From NCBI GenBank assembly GCA_014799585.1, contig JAAVHU010000034.1, positions 22,943 to 34,566 of the forward strand: a DNA stretch of 11,624 nucleotides, given 5' to 3'. The stretch's first letter is position 1, and every line of letters starts with the position of its first letter. This DNA comes from Clostridiales bacterium (GTDB lineage Bacteria > Bacillota > Clostridia > Oscillospirales > Acutalibacteraceae). The notes below the pieces were generated by a model. It was not told the origin of the DNA. It worked only from the letters and a program-made list of their open reading frames with translations, and searched no databases. Below are positions 2,360-10,104 of the stretch, piece by piece. Both the position numbers and the translations under genes were made by a program.

Positions 2360-3049
2360 TTAATCCGTTGGTGAGGTTACATAATACCATTCAACAACAT
2401 CGCCGTCTTTTAAAACATATTTTGAGGCAGACATCATCGGCTTTACACCGTTCACAAGATAGGTCCATCCGCTTCCGTTTCCGCAATCCTTTTCCGAAAG
2501 TCCGTCGATTGCTTTAACATACGATTTATTCTGATGATCAAGCGGTATTGAATTTTTACGGCACTCTGCATTCAGCAAATCAAAAACCGTAGTTCCGTTT
2601 TCAACAGTAAGCTTAGACGGATTTATGATATATTGCGGATAATTAGCCGCCTTTTCACTGTTTACAGAAAATGTAACGATAATTTCTTTTTTTTCAGTAG
2701 GCTTATCTGCTTTTTTTACTGTTGTTTTTGCTGAAGAGGTTGTTTCTTTTTTTACGAAAGATTTTGTACTACTCTCTGCTTTTGCACCGTTTTTCTTTGT
2801 TGTTGATAAATCATTTGATGTGCTTTTATTTTTTGCTGATGTTTCAGTTTCTTTTGATTTTTCAGAACTGTTAGTTTCTGATGTTTCGATTAGCAAAGAG
2901 CTTTCATCCACCGCAGATACGGTTTCAATATCCGATATTAAATTCGTTTCATCTTTTGAATTGCCGCTTTTATGATTCATTCCGATGCCCACAGCAAGGC
3001 AAACAACAATTAAAGAGCTGACAATTGCTATTATTATTTTATTATTCAT
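2360..3049 (-). CDS. Membrane-anchored DUF4430 (transcobalamin beta-like domain) protein
   Basis: This 229-residue protein has one N-terminal hydrophobic helix (residues about 4-22), best read as a membrane anchor or uncleaved signal, so the rest should be outside the cell. Residues about 30-120 are a low-complexity Ser/Thr/Lys/Glu linker suited to crossing the cell wall. Residues about 122-224 match DUF4430, the domain also found as the C-terminal beta domain of intrinsic factor and transcobalamin. Key marks are TTVFDLL (153-159), GSGWTYLVNG (192-201) and LKDGDVVEWYY (213-223). Cys163 and Cys189 could form a disulphide. The gene diverges from a riboswitch-controlled gene encoding the matching alpha-type domain, so I infer a role in binding cobalamin at the surface. 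DUF4430 also occurs in proteins with no known B12 link, so this rests on context. An in-frame TAG lies two codons upstream of the ATG, and there is no Shine-Dalgarno sequence. Confidence 0.85.
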   Translation of the reverse strand: MNNKIIIAIVSSLIVVCLAVGIGMNHKSGNSKDETNLISDIETVSAVDESSLLIETSETNSSEKSKETETSAKNKSTSNDLSTTKKNGAKAESSTKSFVKKETTSSAKTTVKKADKPTEKKEIIVTFSVNSEKAANYPQYIINPSKLTVENGTTVFDLLNAECRKNSIPLDHQNKSYVKAIDGLSEKDCGNGSGWTYLVNGVKPMMSASKYVLKDGDVVEWYYVTSPTD

Positions 3050-3056
3050 AAGCTAT

Positions 3057-3085
3057 ATCATACCAAATTTCATTCTGATTGACAA
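3057..3085 (-). promoter_or_regulatory. Promoter of the DUF4430 gene, giving a probably leaderless mRNA
   Basis: On the minus strand, TTGTCA (3085-3080), a 17-base spacer and TATGAT (3062-3057) make a good vegetative promoter. Only seven bases separate the -10 box from the ATG, so transcription should begin at or next to the start codon. The -35 box shares five bases with the -35 box of the opposite promoter. Confidence 0.65.
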
Positions 3086-3107
3086 TAAGAATTATTAATA
3101 GTATAAT
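3079..3107 (+). promoter_or_regulatory. Consensus promoter driving the cobalamin riboswitch
   Basis: TTGACA (3079-3084), a 17-base spacer and TATAAT (3102-3107) form a perfect SigA-type promoter. Transcription is predicted to start near 3113-3115, at the 5' edge of the riboswitch. It is back to back with, and overlaps, the promoter of the divergent DUF4430 gene. Confidence 0.85.
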
Positions 3108-3112
3108 TTTCC

Positions 3113-3325
3113 CGTGCCAAGAGGTGAACGCTAAATCACCTCACGGGGAATGCGGTTAGAATCCGCAGCAGCTCACTCTACTGTAAGCAGTCAGCAAAAC
3201 ATGGGTTCGACTCTTGTTTTGCTGTAAACTCCATCAGCCACTCGGTTTCGGGGAAGGCGGAGCAAGGTAAAACTGCAAGCCAGGATATCCGTTTGAGGTA
3301 CAAATAAATTTTACGGTGAGGTAAA
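3113..3325 (+). ncRNA. Cobalamin riboswitch, translational type
   Basis: The leader has the conserved blocks of the class in order: GGGAA then GGTTAGAATCC (3145-3164), ACTGTAA (3180-3186), GCCACT then GGGAAGGC (3237-3258), and a B12 box AAGCCAGGATATCCG (3277-3291). A 10-bp side hairpin (3192-3201 with 3215-3224) extends the variable part. Downstream, TTTAC (3310-3314) pairs with GTAAA (3321-3325) and presents loop GGTGAG (3315-3320), which contains most of the Shine-Dalgarno sequence of the next gene. Loop bases CTCACT (3172-3177) in the core complement it, giving the expected L5-L13 kissing contact. With ligand bound, translation should be shut off. No terminator is visible in the leader. 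Confidence 0.93.
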
Positions 3326-3329
3326 GGAA

Positions 3330-4376
3330 ATGAAGAAAATTTTAGCAACGCTCTTAACATTTGTGCTTGTTATGTCTGCATCCATAACAGCATTCGGAGC
3401 AACAACAAACGATGTAGACAAAACACTTGAATCATCACTAAAGTTTGCTTATGGTGATAAAACATCTTTTGATGTTTCTGAATCAAAGGATTATTATCTC
3501 TTTCTCTGTGCAGGCGGACAAGATGAAAAAATCAAGGAATCATACTTTAATTCCGTTAAAAAAGCGCTTGACGGCGGAGAAAAGTTTGATATCGGAACAC
3601 TCGCACTTATCATCAGCAATATGAAGATTTCCAACGAAAATCCAACTGATTTTAAGGGATACAATCTTGTTGATTTGTTCGGAAAAACCGAGCTTGGAGA
3701 GTTTGATAACGTGTATACATATATGTATGCATCCGATATCGCCCTTTCATTTGGTTTTGAAACTTTGGAAAAACAGCTTTGTGATGCTATGGTTTCAAAA
3801 TACATAAAAGGCGAAGGCACCGATTTCTGGGGCGGCTGGGGCACATCCGCTGATGATTTATCTGTATTCATCACAACACTTTCCGTGTGCTATGATGATT
3901 ATAAAGAGTATATAGAGGATGCCGTTTCACTTCTTAAAGGCTGCAATACAGAGGCAGGCTATGATAATTATGGTGCAAATGCAAACTCAACCGCTATGGC
4001 ACTTGCGGCTTATGTTTCAATTGATGAAAAGGAATTAGCAGATGATGCTTATAACAAGCTTATGCTTTTCTATAATAAAGAAACAGGTGGATTTAACAGC
4101 AATTATGATGATGTTTTAGCAACAAAGGATGCTATTTTCGGTTTATCAAAGTATCGTTCAGTAGCAGATTTTGATGATGTTTCAACAGGTAAAGATGAGG
4201 ATGAAAAGCCAACAAATCCGATTGTTGACAACAAAGATACAAATAGCGTAAAGACAGAGAACGAGCCGCAGGCTCCGGTAAAATCTCCTGCAACAGGGGG
4301 AGAATCGGTTGTTTTTGCAGCATTTGCTATGCTTGCAGCAGGCGGAATGATGATTGTTTCAAAAAAGAAAAAGTAA
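3330..4376 (+). CDS. Secreted, wall-anchored helical-repeat protein (prenyltransferase/intrinsic factor alpha-like), probable cobalamin binder
   Basis: This 348-residue surface protein has a signal peptide (residues 1-23, likely cut near AFG-A). Helical repeats at about 28-286 resemble the squalene cyclase/prenyltransferase repeat, the fold also used by the alpha domain of intrinsic factor. Clear repeat units are FWGGWGTSADDLSVFITTLS (166-185 region), YDNYGANANSTAMALAAYVS (221-240) and ETGGFNSNYDDVLATKDAIF (261-280). An acidic, Pro-rich linker (about 290-318) leads to a sorting signal: SPATG at 319-323, a hydrophobic segment and KKKK at the C-terminus. The ATG at 3330 is set by GGTGAGG with eight bases spacing. 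The cobalamin riboswitch upstream shows expression rises when B12 is scarce. I infer that it captures cobalamin or a relative at the cell surface. The enzyme role of prenyltransferases is unlikely, since the catalytic DxDD or zinc-site pattern is not evident. No transporter for B12 lies in the window. Confidence 0.82.
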   Translation: MKKILATLLTFVLVMSASITAFGATTNDVDKTLESSLKFAYGDKTSFDVSESKDYYLFLCAGGQDEKIKESYFNSVKKALDGGEKFDIGTLALIISNMKISNENPTDFKGYNLVDLFGKTELGEFDNVYTYMYASDIALSFGFETLEKQLCDAMVSKYIKGEGTDFWGGWGTSADDLSVFITTLSVCYDDYKEYIEDAVSLLKGCNTEAGYDNYGANANSTAMALAAYVSIDEKELADDAYNKLMLFYNKETGGFNSNYDDVLATKDAIFGLSKYRSVADFDDVSTGKDEDEKPTNPIVDNKDTNSVKTENEPQAPVKSPATGGESVVFAAFAMLAAGGMMIVSKKKK

Positions 4377-4416: not shown

Positions 4417-4446
4417 GTAAGGACGAGCATTGCTCGTTCGTTTTTA
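4416..4446 (+). repeat. Copy 2 of the palindromic terminator repeat, inverted relative to 2322-2352
   Basis: GGACGAGC (4421-4428) pairs with GCTCGTTC (4432-4439) across ATT, with one G-T wobble, followed by GTTTTTATTT. It differs from copy 1 at a single position of the palindrome and shares the flank TTGTAA and the T-rich tail. It works as a second terminator for the plus-strand gene. Its last bases overlap the stop codon of the ATPase gene. Confidence 0.8.
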
Positions 4447-6444
4447 TTTCTTCGCTCTATAATGCAACGCTCTTAAAGAATTTGCAACAGCAATAAGGCA
4501 AACGCCCACATCACCGAAAACAGCAAGCCACATTGCATTTTCATCAAAGATGCCAACTGCACATCCAATAATGATAAGCACCTTTATCAGAATGCTGAAA
4601 ACAATATTTTCTTTAACAATACGCATTGTTTTTCCTGCAATTTTTCTGCCGACAGGGATTTTTGAAAGGCTGTCGCCCATAATAACGATATCTGCCGCTT
4701 CAATTGCCGCATCTGCGCCGATTGCACCCATTGCCACGCCCAAATCAGCTTCAGCAAGAACGGGAGCATCATTAATGCCGTCACCTGTATAAAGCACAAT
4801 TGCATCATCCGTTTTCTTAAGTGCTTTAACCCTTTCAACCTTTTCATCAGGCATAAGCCTTGCATAATAATCATCAATGCCTGCTTTTTCGGAAATATCC
4901 TTTGCAATAGGCTCTTTATCACCTGTAAGCATAACCGTTTTTAAAAAGCCCATCTTTTTCATTTCGGAAATTGCTTCTTTGCTGTCTGTTTTAATCACAT
5001 CGGCAAAAACAATATCGCCCAAAAATTCATCCTCACTGCAAAGATAAATCGCCGTGCCTACAAGCGAAGTTTCCTTAAATTCAACACCAACCTCTGCCAT
5101 CAGCTTTTCATTGCCTGCAAAATACTTTTTGCCGTTTACAACAGCAGAAACACCCATTCCTGCAAAGTTCTTTGCATCTTCAACCTTTAATTCATCTGCA
5201 TAATGCCCGAAAGCAAGGGAAATTGATTTTGCAATAGGGTGTGTTGAATATCTTTCACAGGCGGCAATGATTGCAAGAAGCTCTCTGTGTTCAACCGCAC
5301 TTTCACAATGGCAGTGCACACATTCACAGTTTACATATTCAAACTTTCCGCTTGTTATCGTTCCTGTTTTATCAAAAACAGCGGTGTTGCATTTTGAAAG
5401 CATTTCAAGATAATTGCTTCCCTTAATAAGAATTCCCTGCTTTGAAGAAGCACCAAGACCCGCAAAAAAGCCAAGCGGAATTGAAATAACAATTGCACAC
5501 GGGCAGGAAACAACAAGAGCAGAAAGCCCTCTGTAAATCCATTCGCTCCAACTCTGCTTAAAGAAAAGCGGGGGAACAACAATGATAAGAAGTGCAATCA
5601 GGCAAACCGCAGGGGTATAAATCTTTGCAAAACGGCTGATAAATTTTTCAGCATTGCTCTTCTTGCTGTCTGTATTCTCAATCATTTCAAGAATTCTTGC
5701 GGTAGTTGACTGACTGTACGGCTTGGTTGCTTTAATAACAAGCATTCCGTCTAAATTAACAGAGCCTGAAAGCACTTCATCACCTGCAGACATAGAAACA
5801 GGAATGCTCTCTCCCGTTAAGGCAGACATATCAACCTCTGCATTTCCCTTAACGATAACACCGTCTAAATGAATAATCTGCCCCGGATCAACAACGAATT
5901 CCTCGCCTGCTTCAATTTCTTCGGGTTTAACCTCAAGATTTTTTCCGTTTCTGATGACCGTTACCGCCTGAGGCTTGTTTTCTATCATATCCGAAATGGA
6001 TTTTCTGCTTTTGCCAACAGCCAAATCCTGTAAAAACTCACCGATTGTATAAAGCAGAACTACAGCACAGCCCTCTGTGTATTCCCCGATAGCAAACGCA
6101 CCGATAGATGCAATGCCCATCAGCAGATTTTCATTAAAGATATTTCCGTGAATAATGCCCTCTATTGCTTCCTTGATAATATTGAAGCCCACGATTAAAT
6201 AAAAAATTCCAAAGCAGATAAGGGCCGCCTTTTCGTTAATATCGGTAAATTTGCTTAATATGTAGCCAAGCACAAGGAAAGCACCGCCACAGGCAATTTT
6301 AAAGATGAAATCTTTTTTATTCACTTCTCCGCCGTGCTCGTGATCATGACCACAACCGCATCCGTCATCGTGATGATGCTTGTGATTATGCTGGTGTTCA
6401 CAGCAACAGCATCCGTCCGTATGATTATGCTTTTTTTCTTCCAT
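4444..6444 (-). CDS. cadA: P1B-2 type Zn/Cd/Pb-exporting ATPase
   Basis: This 666-residue ATP-driven pump expels soft divalent metals from the cytoplasm. The ATG at 6444 follows GAGGAA; an upstream in-frame start at 6525 would run through a palindromic repeat and the previous gene's stop region, so I reject it. Marks in order: TGES (210-213) in the actuator, CPC (314-316) in the membrane site, DKTGT with phosphorylated Asp358, HP (402-403), TGD (507-509) and GDGINDAP (554-561). Lys621 and Asp645-x-Gly647 in the last helices match the ZntA/CadA group rather than copper pumps. There is no classic CxxC ferredoxin-like N-domain. A tail rich in His and Cys (residues 6-37) takes its place, and a second cluster (Cys373, 375, 378, 380 with His377 and 379) follows the phosphorylation site. 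It lies downstream of a DUF421 gene, 70 bases apart. No ArsR/MerR regulator is present here. Confidence 0.93.
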   Translation of the reverse strand: MEEKKHNHTDGCCCCEHQHNHKHHHDDGCGCGHDHEHGGEVNKKDFIFKIACGGAFLVLGYILSKFTDINEKAALICFGIFYLIVGFNIIKEAIEGIIHGNIFNENLLMGIASIGAFAIGEYTEGCAVVLLYTIGEFLQDLAVGKSRKSISDMIENKPQAVTVIRNGKNLEVKPEEIEAGEEFVVDPGQIIHLDGVIVKGNAEVDMSALTGESIPVSMSAGDEVLSGSVNLDGMLVIKATKPYSQSTTARILEMIENTDSKKSNAEKFISRFAKIYTPAVCLIALLIIVVPPLFFKQSWSEWIYRGLSALVVSCPCAIVISIPLGFFAGLGASSKQGILIKGSNYLEMLSKCNTAVFDKTGTITSGKFEYVNCECVHCHCESAVEHRELLAIIAACERYSTHPIAKSISLAFGHYADELKVEDAKNFAGMGVSAVVNGKKYFAGNEKLMAEVGVEFKETSLVGTAIYLCSEDEFLGDIVFADVIKTDSKEAISEMKKMGFLKTVMLTGDKEPIAKDISEKAGIDDYYARLMPDEKVERVKALKKTDDAIVLYTGDGINDAPVLAEADLGVAMGAIGADAAIEAADIVIMGDSLSKIPVGRKIAGKTMRIVKENIVFSILIKVLIIIGCAVGIFDENAMWLAVFGDVGVCLIAVANSLRALHYRAKK

Positions 6445-6468
6445 TTCAATTCCTCGTTTTATGTAATT

Positions 6469-6499
6469 ATGGCTTCCCCTTGAGGGGAAGGCTTTTATT
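6469..6499 (+). repeat. GC-rich palindrome, probably a dispersed repeat
   Basis: CTTCCCC pairs with GGGGAAG (7 bp, loop TTGA) and is followed on the plus strand by GCTTTTATTTTTTT. The T-rich tail lies on the plus strand, but no plus-strand gene ends here. It sits between two minus-strand genes, so a terminator role for them is doubtful. Its arms recur, split apart, at 10141-10212. Confidence 0.6.
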
Positions 6500-6514
6500 T
6501 TTTTATAATATAAT

Positions 6515-7186
6515 TTATTTATCAAACAAAGTCAACACTCCGTTTGAATCCATAACACCTAAAAAGATATTTTTTACTTCCTTATCCTGCTGCTTTACTC
6601 TTTTAATCAAATCGCTTTTATCTATTTTAGCATCTGCAAGATCATCCTCCATAATCCTGCCGTCCATAATCACATTCACGGTAAGCCCCTCGCTCTGCGG
6701 TGCAAAGTTGAAATCCTTTGGATTAAGCGGTCTTTTGAGCGGAACAGGCATAAAGCTGATTTTTCCTGTGGTTTCCATCATTGCATAATCAATATCTGCA
6801 ATGTTGAAATAGCCCGCTGCACGTGCAGAAGAAAGTAAATCATTCAGTTCTATTCTTGCTTTTCTTAAATTCTTTTTATAAATTTTTCCTTTATAGATAA
6901 GGATAATCGGACTGCCGTTTATAATCTGCCTTGCGGCATTGCTTTTTTGTGAAATAAACGAAAAGATAACATCAAGAATGGCATAAACAGCCATTGCTGT
7001 TACACCCTTCCACCATTCCATATCAAGATTGGTAGACATTTCGGCAGCAACAGATCCAATTGTTATACCAACAACATAATCAAAAAAGGATAACTCGGAA
7101 ATTGCACGATAGCCCATTACCTTTGAAAGAATAAATAAAACAACAAACGATATAAGACCCAAAAGAATAATATTTAAAAAATCCAT
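6515..7186 (-). CDS. DUF421 (YetF-like) membrane protein
   Basis: This 223-residue protein has three N-terminal membrane helices (about 3-24, 34-50 and 59-80) and a cytoplasmic domain. Family marks are SELSFFDYVVGITIGS (30-45), NGSPIILIYKGKI (90-102) and the LSSARAAGYFNIADIDYAM stretch (118-136) followed by ETTG. Length is typical for DUF421 proteins related to Bacillus YetF. A good AAAGGTGAT ribosome binding site precedes the ATG. The biochemical role of the family is not established. Its place directly upstream of a metal-exporting ATPase on the same strand, and divergent from a cation diffusion facilitator, hints at envelope or metal stress, but that is context only. Confidence 0.9.
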   Translation of the reverse strand: MDFLNIILLGLISFVVLFILSKVMGYRAISELSFFDYVVGITIGSVAAEMSTNLDMEWWKGVTAMAVYAILDVIFSFISQKSNAARQIINGSPIILIYKGKIYKKNLRKARIELNDLLSSARAAGYFNIADIDYAMMETTGKISFMPVPLKRPLNPKDFNFAPQSEGLTVNVIMDGRIMEDDLADAKIDKSDLIKRVKQQDKEVKNIFLGVMDSNGVLTLFDK

Positions 7187-9253: not shown

Positions 9254-9398
9254 AAATATTTTCAGGGCGGGGTGTAATTCCCCACCGGCAGTATAGTCTG
9301 CGACCTGTGATTGAATAAATCACGGCTGAATCGGTGCAATTCCGATACCGACGGTGAAACATTTATAAAATGTAAAGTCCGGATGAGAGAAAATGTTT
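9254..9398 (+). ncRNA. FMN riboswitch (RFN element)
   Basis: The leader carries the RFN core: TTCAGGGCGGGGTG, CCCCACCGGCAGT, the TCTGCGACC segment, GAATCGGTGCAATTCCGAT, CCGACGGT and AGTCCGGATGAGAGAA. AAATATTTTC (9254-9263) pairs with GAAAATGTTT (9389-9398) to close P1. It binds flavin mononucleotide and, through the terminator that follows, switches off the riboflavin transporter when flavin is plentiful. Confidence 0.97.
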
Positions 9399-9446: not shown

Positions 9447-9482
9447 GCCCTTGATACTTTTTGTATCAAGGGCTTCTCTTTT
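9447..9482 (+). terminator. Riboswitch-controlled terminator upstream of ribU
   Basis: GCCCTTGATAC (9447-9457) pairs perfectly with GTATCAAGGGC (9463-9473) around TTTTT, followed by TTCTCTTTT. Competing pairings are possible: AAATGTT (9391-9397, the P1 3' strand) with AACATTT (9438-9444), and AAGGCA (9399-9404) with TGCCTT (9424-9429). AGGGCG in the RFN core (9264-9269) can also pair with CGCCCT (9446-9451). The last would break the terminator stem and could be the antiterminator. Confidence 0.88.
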
Positions 9483-9504
9483 GCCCAAAAAGGAGAAACT
9501 TATT

Positions 9505-10104
9505 ATGACAAACACAACAAAAAAATCACAAAGCAACAAAATCCGTTTCATTACAGGATGCGGTGTTCTTGCGGCATTTGCAACAGCACTTCAATATCTT
9601 GAAATTCCAAGCCCTGTAAGCTTTATCGCGTTTGATTTTTCGGATTTGCCCGCACTGATTGGATCTTTTGCTTACGGCCCTATCGCAGGTATTTTAATTG
9701 AATTGATTAAAAACATTATCCATCTTGCAGTCAGCCGAAGCGGATTTATCGGAGAACTTTCCAATTTCATTTTAGGTGCAGTTTTCGTTGGCGTAGCAGG
9801 CCTTATGTATAAGCATAATAAGACAAAGAAAATGGCTTTGATTGCAGGCGTTATCGGTTCGCTCTGCATGGCAGTTATCAGCTATCCTTCAAACTTATTT
9901 GTTGTTTATCCTTTCTACTACAATTTTATGCCAAAGGAAGCTGTTTTGCAGGTTTATCAGAATTTATTTAAAGTAAACAGCATTGAAATGGCTATCTTAA
10001 TTTATAATGTTCCGTTTACATTTGTTAAAGGCTTAATCAGCGTTGTAATCTCTGCGTTTGTTTACAAACCATTAAGCCCGATTTTACACGGAAAAACCAA
10101 ATAA
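9505..10104 (+). CDS. ribU: Riboflavin ECF transporter substrate-binding (S) component RibU
   Basis: This 199-residue integral membrane protein binds riboflavin and works with the shared EcfA-EcfA'-EcfT energy module, which is not in this window. About six hydrophobic helices are seen. The N-terminal part has the S-component pattern ALQYLEI (28-34), DFSDLPALIG (44-53), LIKN (67-70) and GELSNFILGA (83-92), as in RibU proteins. I chose ATG 9505 because AGGAG lies nine bases upstream; an in-frame ATG at 9451 is inside the terminator stem. The FMN riboswitch directly upstream confirms the vitamin assignment. Length is normal for the family. Confidence 0.95.
   Translation: MTNTTKKSQSNKIRFITGCGVLAAFATALQYLEIPSPVSFIAFDFSDLPALIGSFAYGPIAGILIELIKNIIHLAVSRSGFIGELSNFILGAVFVGVAGLMYKHNKTKKMALIAGVIGSLCMAVISYPSNLFVVYPFYYNFMPKEAVLQVYQNLFKVNSIEMAILIYNVPFTFVKGLISVVISAFVYKPLSPILHGKTK

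Follow-up and report, generated by a model that had tools for sequence, protein, structure and literature searches.

Corrinoids are captured at the surface of Bacteroidetes, before membrane import, by BtuG, a beta-propeller protein of the Gram-negative outer membrane, and the CbrT/CblT-type cobalamin transporters of the energy-coupling factor (ECF) class represent a related known kind. To our knowledge, corrinoid capture outside the membrane is poorly understood in Gram-positive gut bacteria. Here, a DNA stretch of 11,624 nucleotides from an uncultured, gut-type Clostridiales bacterium (contig JAAVHU010000034.1; the whole stretch is referred to as the window) was found to carry two divergent genes, one for a secreted helical protein (alpha) and one for a membrane-tethered DUF4430 protein (beta), with a cobalamin riboswitch ahead of the alpha gene. 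This arrangement, described in an initial annotation of the sequence, is confirmed. The two proteins probably form a two-chain device for capturing corrinoids at the surface, an alpha/alpha toroid and a DUF4430 domain, and B12 capture as such is well supported by fold, regulation, neighborhood and gene fusion. Surface capture, predicted for the window pair, is common to it and BtuG; the folds are unrelated.

A toroid and a beta domain of the DUF4430 type are likewise combined in human intrinsic factor, haptocorrin and transcobalamin (2pmv, 4kki and 2bb5). These animal carriers are soluble single chains in alpha-beta order, whereas the window encodes the two parts in separate genes and its toroid gives no match to PF01122 (Cobalamin_bind). 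A bacterial counterpart was put forward in 2007 by Burroughs and colleagues (PMC1796856), whose main text places a transcobalamin-like SLBB clade, fused to alpha/alpha toroids on either side, in operons with CbiO/CbiQ-like transporters, predicts a role in B12 scavenging and raises a possible transfer of B12 carriers from Gram-positive bacteria to animals. Shared with that proposal are the secreted or surface beta-grasp domain, the toroid partner, the transporter operons and the predicted scavenging. Unlike the fused form, the window toroid is a separate, divergently encoded protein, SPATG-tailed and unrecognized by Pfam, and the beta protein has a membrane anchor of its own. The same article mentions stand-alone prokaryotic beta-grasp domains; the words riboswitch and split are absent from its main text. 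A full-text search of the open-licence literature did not retrieve a split bacterial toroid/DUF4430 pair. The possible novelty raised by the initial annotation is therefore narrowed: the fused toroid-SLBB architecture for B12 scavenging had already been proposed, and only the split, divergent and Pfam-unannotated version looks undescribed in the literature searched. Such a pair would bear directly on the suggested Gram-positive origin of animal B12 carriers (PMC1796856).

The beta gene (2360..3049, minus strand) encodes 229 residues. A hydrophobic N-terminal helix without a lipobox forms the predicted membrane anchor and is followed by a linker of ~95 residues and a C-terminal DUF4430/SLBB beta-grasp domain. 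The linker, initially described as rich in Ser, Thr and Lys, was recovered as a stretch of low model confidence in which 74% of residues 31-110 are Ser, Thr, Lys, Glu or Asn. DUF4430 (PF14478), so far catalogued without a known function, matched residues 152-224 (2378..2596, minus strand) at 71.9 bits against a curated cut-off of 23.8. In the structural model, helix 155-165 precedes strands 170-174 and 177-181, giving a beta-grasp with a hairpin inserted after the helix. The best structure matches, over about residues 110-227, were the beta domains of haptocorrin, intrinsic factor and transcobalamin, and superposition gave root-mean-square deviations of 1.9 on haptocorrin and 2.1 on intrinsic factor. 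Among the nearest known systems, structure 3u7z (RUMGNA_00854 of Ruminococcus gnavus) differs in being titled a putative metal-binding protein in the PDB.

The alpha gene (3330..4376, plus strand) encodes 348 residues comprising a signal peptide (assigned by eye), a toroid, a linker and a putative sorting signal. No Pfam domain scored above its cut-off. The AlphaFold2 model is a barrel at about residues 26-281 (3405..4172, plus strand), supported by structure matches, with block means of the predicted local distance difference test mostly at or above 90 over residues 31-280; on this model, alpha is an alpha/alpha toroid as in the intrinsic factor/transcobalamin family. Searches of PDB sequences with the alpha and beta proteins singly returned nothing at E 1, the alpha profile gave a single weak match to an unrelated protein, and the related toroid of locus L084 matched squalene-hopene cyclases and dockerins, with transcobalamin absent. 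The tail consists of an SPATG sortase-like motif (residues 319-323; 4284..4298, plus strand), a hydrophobic helix and a Lys-rich end (KKKK). In 81 of 89 homologues, SPxTG occurs among the final 60 residues; the Pfam sorting-anchor model scored 13.2 on alpha, under its cut-off of 20, and the source genome (G000) has a single sortase match, partial and at the end of a contig.

The loops at 157-173, 205-217 and 248-260 rank with the most conserved segments of the toroid. Given that all three join odd to even helices, they should lie together at one barrel end. Conservation averaged 3.00 bits in odd-to-even loops versus 2.49 bits in even-to-odd loops (permutation p 0.006, with residues taken as independent and helix limits split by eye), and helix 10 was as conserved as the best loop. 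An enzymatic terpene-cyclase reading of the toroid was put aside on two grounds, the secretion of the protein and the wide occurrence of the fold. More broadly, the toroid could be B12-regulated and yet bind another ligand, such as a glycan or another cofactor, or be an enzyme, leaving only the DUF4430 protein to handle corrinoids. The closest structures to the toroid, which are glycoside hydrolases and terpene cyclases, and the dockerin, Big_2 or fn3 modules on some related toroid proteins would suit this alternative. It is nonetheless improbable, since the toroid is led by the sole cobalamin riboswitch found in five pair-carrying genomes (G000 and those of L003, L004, L005 and L006) and keeps its DUF4430 neighbor in 13 of 13 loci.

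The cobalamin riboswitch aptamer (RF00174) was matched at 3102..3310 on the plus strand, behind the alpha promoter and directly upstream of the alpha gene, with 51.2 bits against a gathering score of 31.5. In the btuB and env8 riboswitches, kissing of loops L5 and L13 promotes a hairpin over the ribosome binding site (PMC10653944). In the window, an L5-like CUCAC segment (3172..3176, plus strand) has its candidate partner, GUGAG, in the L13 loop of a P13-like hairpin, UUUAC-GGUGAG-GUAAA (3310..3325, plus strand), and this loop overlaps the ribosome binding site. All 12 riboswitch-bearing leaders compared (window, L003-L011, L013 and L014) carry CAGCTCACTCTAC at the L5 position and CGGTGAGGT ahead of the alpha ATG; both are absent from L012, and the co-directional locus L017 has the riboswitch without the CAGCTCACTCTAC L5 element. 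CUCAC and GUGAG are complementary in the window and the 11 related leaders and are invariant, so that this pairing has no covariation of its own.

The hairpin with GGTGAG as its loop had 94.5% of its cells paired, with seven cells changed on both sides. Its paired cells, double-changed cells and covariation score all exceeded those of 500 of 500 shuffles; the weaker measures of double-changed pairs and further pair types were matched by 315 and 32 of the 500, respectively. By two of three responsive measures, the P13 stem around GGUGAG covaries. Slid versions of the hairpin always fell short in percentage paired, in double-changed cells and in score (nearest 0.314 versus 0.349), equaled the real one in double-changed pairs and, for one slide, had more pair types. 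We infer that the riboswitch acts as a translational off-switch for alpha. A separate 5' hairpin arm, ACCUCAC (3137-3143), was considered as a pairing partner of the ribosome binding site and dropped, this 7-mer occurring in the window only among 13 leaders.

The two promoters lie back to back at 3057-3107 with overlapping -35 elements. That of alpha (3079..3107, plus strand) is a perfect sigma-70-type TTGACA-17-TATAAT (12/12). The predicted beta promoter (3057..3085, minus strand) reads TTGTCA-17-TATGAT with TG ahead of the -10 (extended -10 type), its TATGAT lying 7 nt from the beta ATG. Related loci carry a similar TTGTCA-17-TGN-TATTAT-like element, and in 11 of 12 related divergent loci the -10 ends 6-9 bases upstream of the conserved beta ATG (L011 being the exception, and L005 and L008 counted to their second ATG). 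Across 378 kb (nine loci, both strands) the pattern occurred 13 times, and eight of those occurrences are the promoters. Given the proximity of the beta -10 to the ATG and the overlap of the -35 elements, the beta mRNA is predicted from sequence to be leaderless or near-leaderless, and the two promoters are predicted to compete.

Scanning genomes with the alpha profile yielded 16 loci, their records belonging to uncultured Eubacterium-like organisms, Oscillospiraceae and other Clostridia. After exclusion of L015, L016 and L018, which start less than 650 bases from the alpha match, a DUF4430 gene adjoined alpha in 13 of 13 loci with enough flank, divergently in 12 and co-directionally in L017; the pairing is therefore more than chance. 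A cobalamin riboswitch at gathering score was present in 12 of these 13. In L012, the divergent genes are 107 bases apart (9893-10001) and the riboswitch was apparently lost or never gained. In 150 family genomes, DUF4430 was found in 112 and a cobalamin riboswitch in 94. At least 66 of 107 riboswitch places had DUF4430 within 6 kb, against ~0.7 expected under uniform placement in 2.1-Mb genomes; in at least 63 of these cases DUF4430 was downstream and on the riboswitch strand. The alpha profile matched 11 family genomes at E <1e-9 and, among the matches listed, DUF4430 lay within ~3 kb on the same contig in nine of them (exceptions G071 and G083). A further 49 weak alpha matches (E >1e-9) were left uncounted, 36 falling wholly in model positions 1-90 or 264-353, the signal peptide or sorting signal.

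Co-occurrence of pair and riboswitch and the existence of natural fusions had been singled out initially as informative about the system, and both were encountered; the regions retrieved from the family genomes were chosen for toroid, DUF4430 or riboswitch matches rather than sampled at random. Gene order may be riboswitch-beta-alpha (G073 and G034) or riboswitch-alpha-beta (G102, G009 and G106). Both domains occupy a single open frame in L088 (655 residues), L089 (729 residues) and L090 (1597 residues), with DUF4430 N-terminal to the toroid, an order opposite to that of the animal carriers. The toroid parts are weak in L090 (profile A1, E 5e-9) and L089 (A1, E 4e-5; Prenyltrans 23.0 bits, cut-off 26.5). 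In G149, one of the nine genomes above, DUF4430 and a toroid match share a frame, the latter unconfirmed on re-search. The 2613-residue open reading frame of L091 was kept out of the fusion count because the toroid match (model positions 204-350) failed to recur. The two genes might be unrelated neighbors whose likeness to intrinsic factor is a coincidence of fold, and sequence similarity to transcobalamin is indeed marginal; retention of the neighborhood in divergent, operonic and fused forms, together with DUF4430 near at least 66 of 107 riboswitches, makes this explanation hardly credible.

Links to transport were found in relatives. The L084 operon shares riboswitch, toroid and DUF4430 protein with the window, where the pair stands alone; L084 continues into transporter genes. 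There the riboswitch is followed by a toroid protein that matches Prenyltrans and SQHop_cyclase and carries a dockerin, then by a DUF4430 lipoprotein, EcfT, a fused ECF ATPase and an ECF S component. An EcfT-like gene directly follows DUF4430 in seven of 14 loci (L084, L088, L089, L091, L094, L095 and L096), this count covering 14 of 21 loci examined; the name EcfT derives from a related protein in L121 that matches CbiQ, the L084 member having no such match. The EcfT profile (A3) matched 16 of 17 pair-carrying genomes, at E <1e-60 in 13 and 5e-38 in G073; A3 includes the L084 sequence, and the G106 match is therefore by construction. The genomes of L003, L004 and L005, nearest in alpha sequence, were among the strong matches. 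An S-component profile (A5, built from three sequences) matched three of four genomes, G000 not among them; L093:11788-12837 was dropped as an S component when alignment showed it to be unrelated. No cobalamin riboswitch reached threshold in ten scanned ECF stretches lying apart from the pair (ten of twelve fetched, G073 set aside). In L121 and L123, a gene for an ATP:corrinoid adenosyltransferase lies ahead of EcfT. The source genome encodes one protein with a B12-binding domain, a 786-residue frame whose size suggests MetH, and each of the three closest relatives also has one.

A clamp-like closure of the two domains around B12 is plausible. Its main rival is a relay within the same pathway, in which wall toroid and membrane DUF4430 protein would each bind corrinoid alone and pass it inward, DUF4430 serving as a docking component of the ECF transporter. 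Several observations would fit such a relay: in L094 and L096, the gene ahead of DUF4430 encodes a protein that matches PQQ_2, so the toroid is not its constant companion; L088 and L089 carry a second, free DUF4430 protein beside the fused one; and the human transcobalamin beta domain was, by its title, solved alone with cyanocobalamin (5np4). The gene ahead of DUF4430 in these ECF clusters (L094:6629-9391 and L096:5517-7877) encodes a secreted protein whose match is of the beta-propeller type and not a toroid. The gene rtpR presumably encodes a B12-dependent ribonucleotide reductase. A DUF4430 gene lies next to rtpR in Lacticaseibacillus rhamnosus, according to PMC9963975, and, also in keeping with a relay, a table entry there, with no domain given, reads 'Additional lipoprotein component of putative cobalamin ECF transporter'; PMC4350170 and PMC9600662 belong to the related literature. 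Several relatives, like animals (PMC1796856), carry the two domains on a single polypeptide, which favors joint binding, and the relay is accordingly the less likely course.

As a whole, the interpretation given in the initial annotation is partly supported, by folds, riboswitch, conserved pairing, fusions and the ECF/adenosyltransferase linkage in relatives. Of the intrinsic-factor-type folds it claimed, that of beta stands through its matches to transcobalamin-family domains, and alpha is an alpha/alpha toroid of a general kind only. Several results weigh against two-chain corrinoid capture. The toroid is nearer to glycosidases/glycoside hydrolases and terpene cyclases than to transcobalamin, which ranked 50 in Foldseek, and PF01122 gave no match in alpha at E 1; that profile also found nothing in the 150 family genomes, a search that says little, as controls gave none either. 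The DUF4430 profile reached transcobalamin at E 0.59 only, third after two unrelated proteins; the domain was searched alone because the full-length beta profile, which misses transcobalamin, drew most of its matches through its low-complexity linker. Where the genes are divergent, only the alpha transcript carries the riboswitch, and the L012 pair has none at threshold. The EcfT matches of G034 and the L010 genome are weak (~1e-11) and may be ordinary EcfT, and profile searches of the source genome (1.03 Mb in 50 contigs, 67.6% complete) found neither EcfT nor S component of this type.

Under two-chain capture, low intracellular corrinoid would allow translation of the toroid protein, which would be fixed to the wall; at high corrinoid, L5-L13 pairing would stabilize the P13 hairpin across the ribosome binding site, halting translation. 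The beta protein would reach upward from the membrane on its flexible ~95-residue linker, and the toroid and beta domains would cooperate on corrinoids in the manner of their counterparts in transcobalamin and intrinsic factor. The corrinoid would then be handed to a membrane importer, most likely the ECF module carried by most pair genomes, and the likely purpose would be the supply of MetH. A more specific version is offered tentatively: the pair may be a non-covalent, two-polypeptide intrinsic factor in which separately anchored alpha and beta close around one corrinoid, bridging wall and membrane, and are expressed from overlapping back-to-back promoters with alpha under a B12 riboswitch and beta leaderless. 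Split, operonic and fused forms would then mark an evolutionary path to the single-chain animal carriers. The pair under its riboswitch offers two small soluble domains suited to tests of ligand-induced assembly, and would provide a marker by which corrinoid scavenging could be traced among uncultured Clostridia.

Within the window, the pair (intergenic gap 280 bases) is flanked by genes for a sugar-type ATP-binding cassette transporter and a P-type ATPase, and is not next to EcfT, EcfA or S genes. The ATPase (4444-6525) is of the heavy-metal type, with a His/Cys-rich N-terminal stretch. A terminator-like palindrome, GGACGAGCATTGCTCGT, lies on both sides of the pair (2329-2347 and 4421-4439); eight copies occur in the source genome, six in G152, one in G151 and none in G150. 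Further along the window, a flavin mononucleotide (FMN) riboswitch (9254-9398, 101.5 bits) precedes an ECF S component (9451-10104) that is probably a riboflavin transporter. FMN riboswitches were found within ~8 kb of the pair in seven of the 16 related loci scanned.
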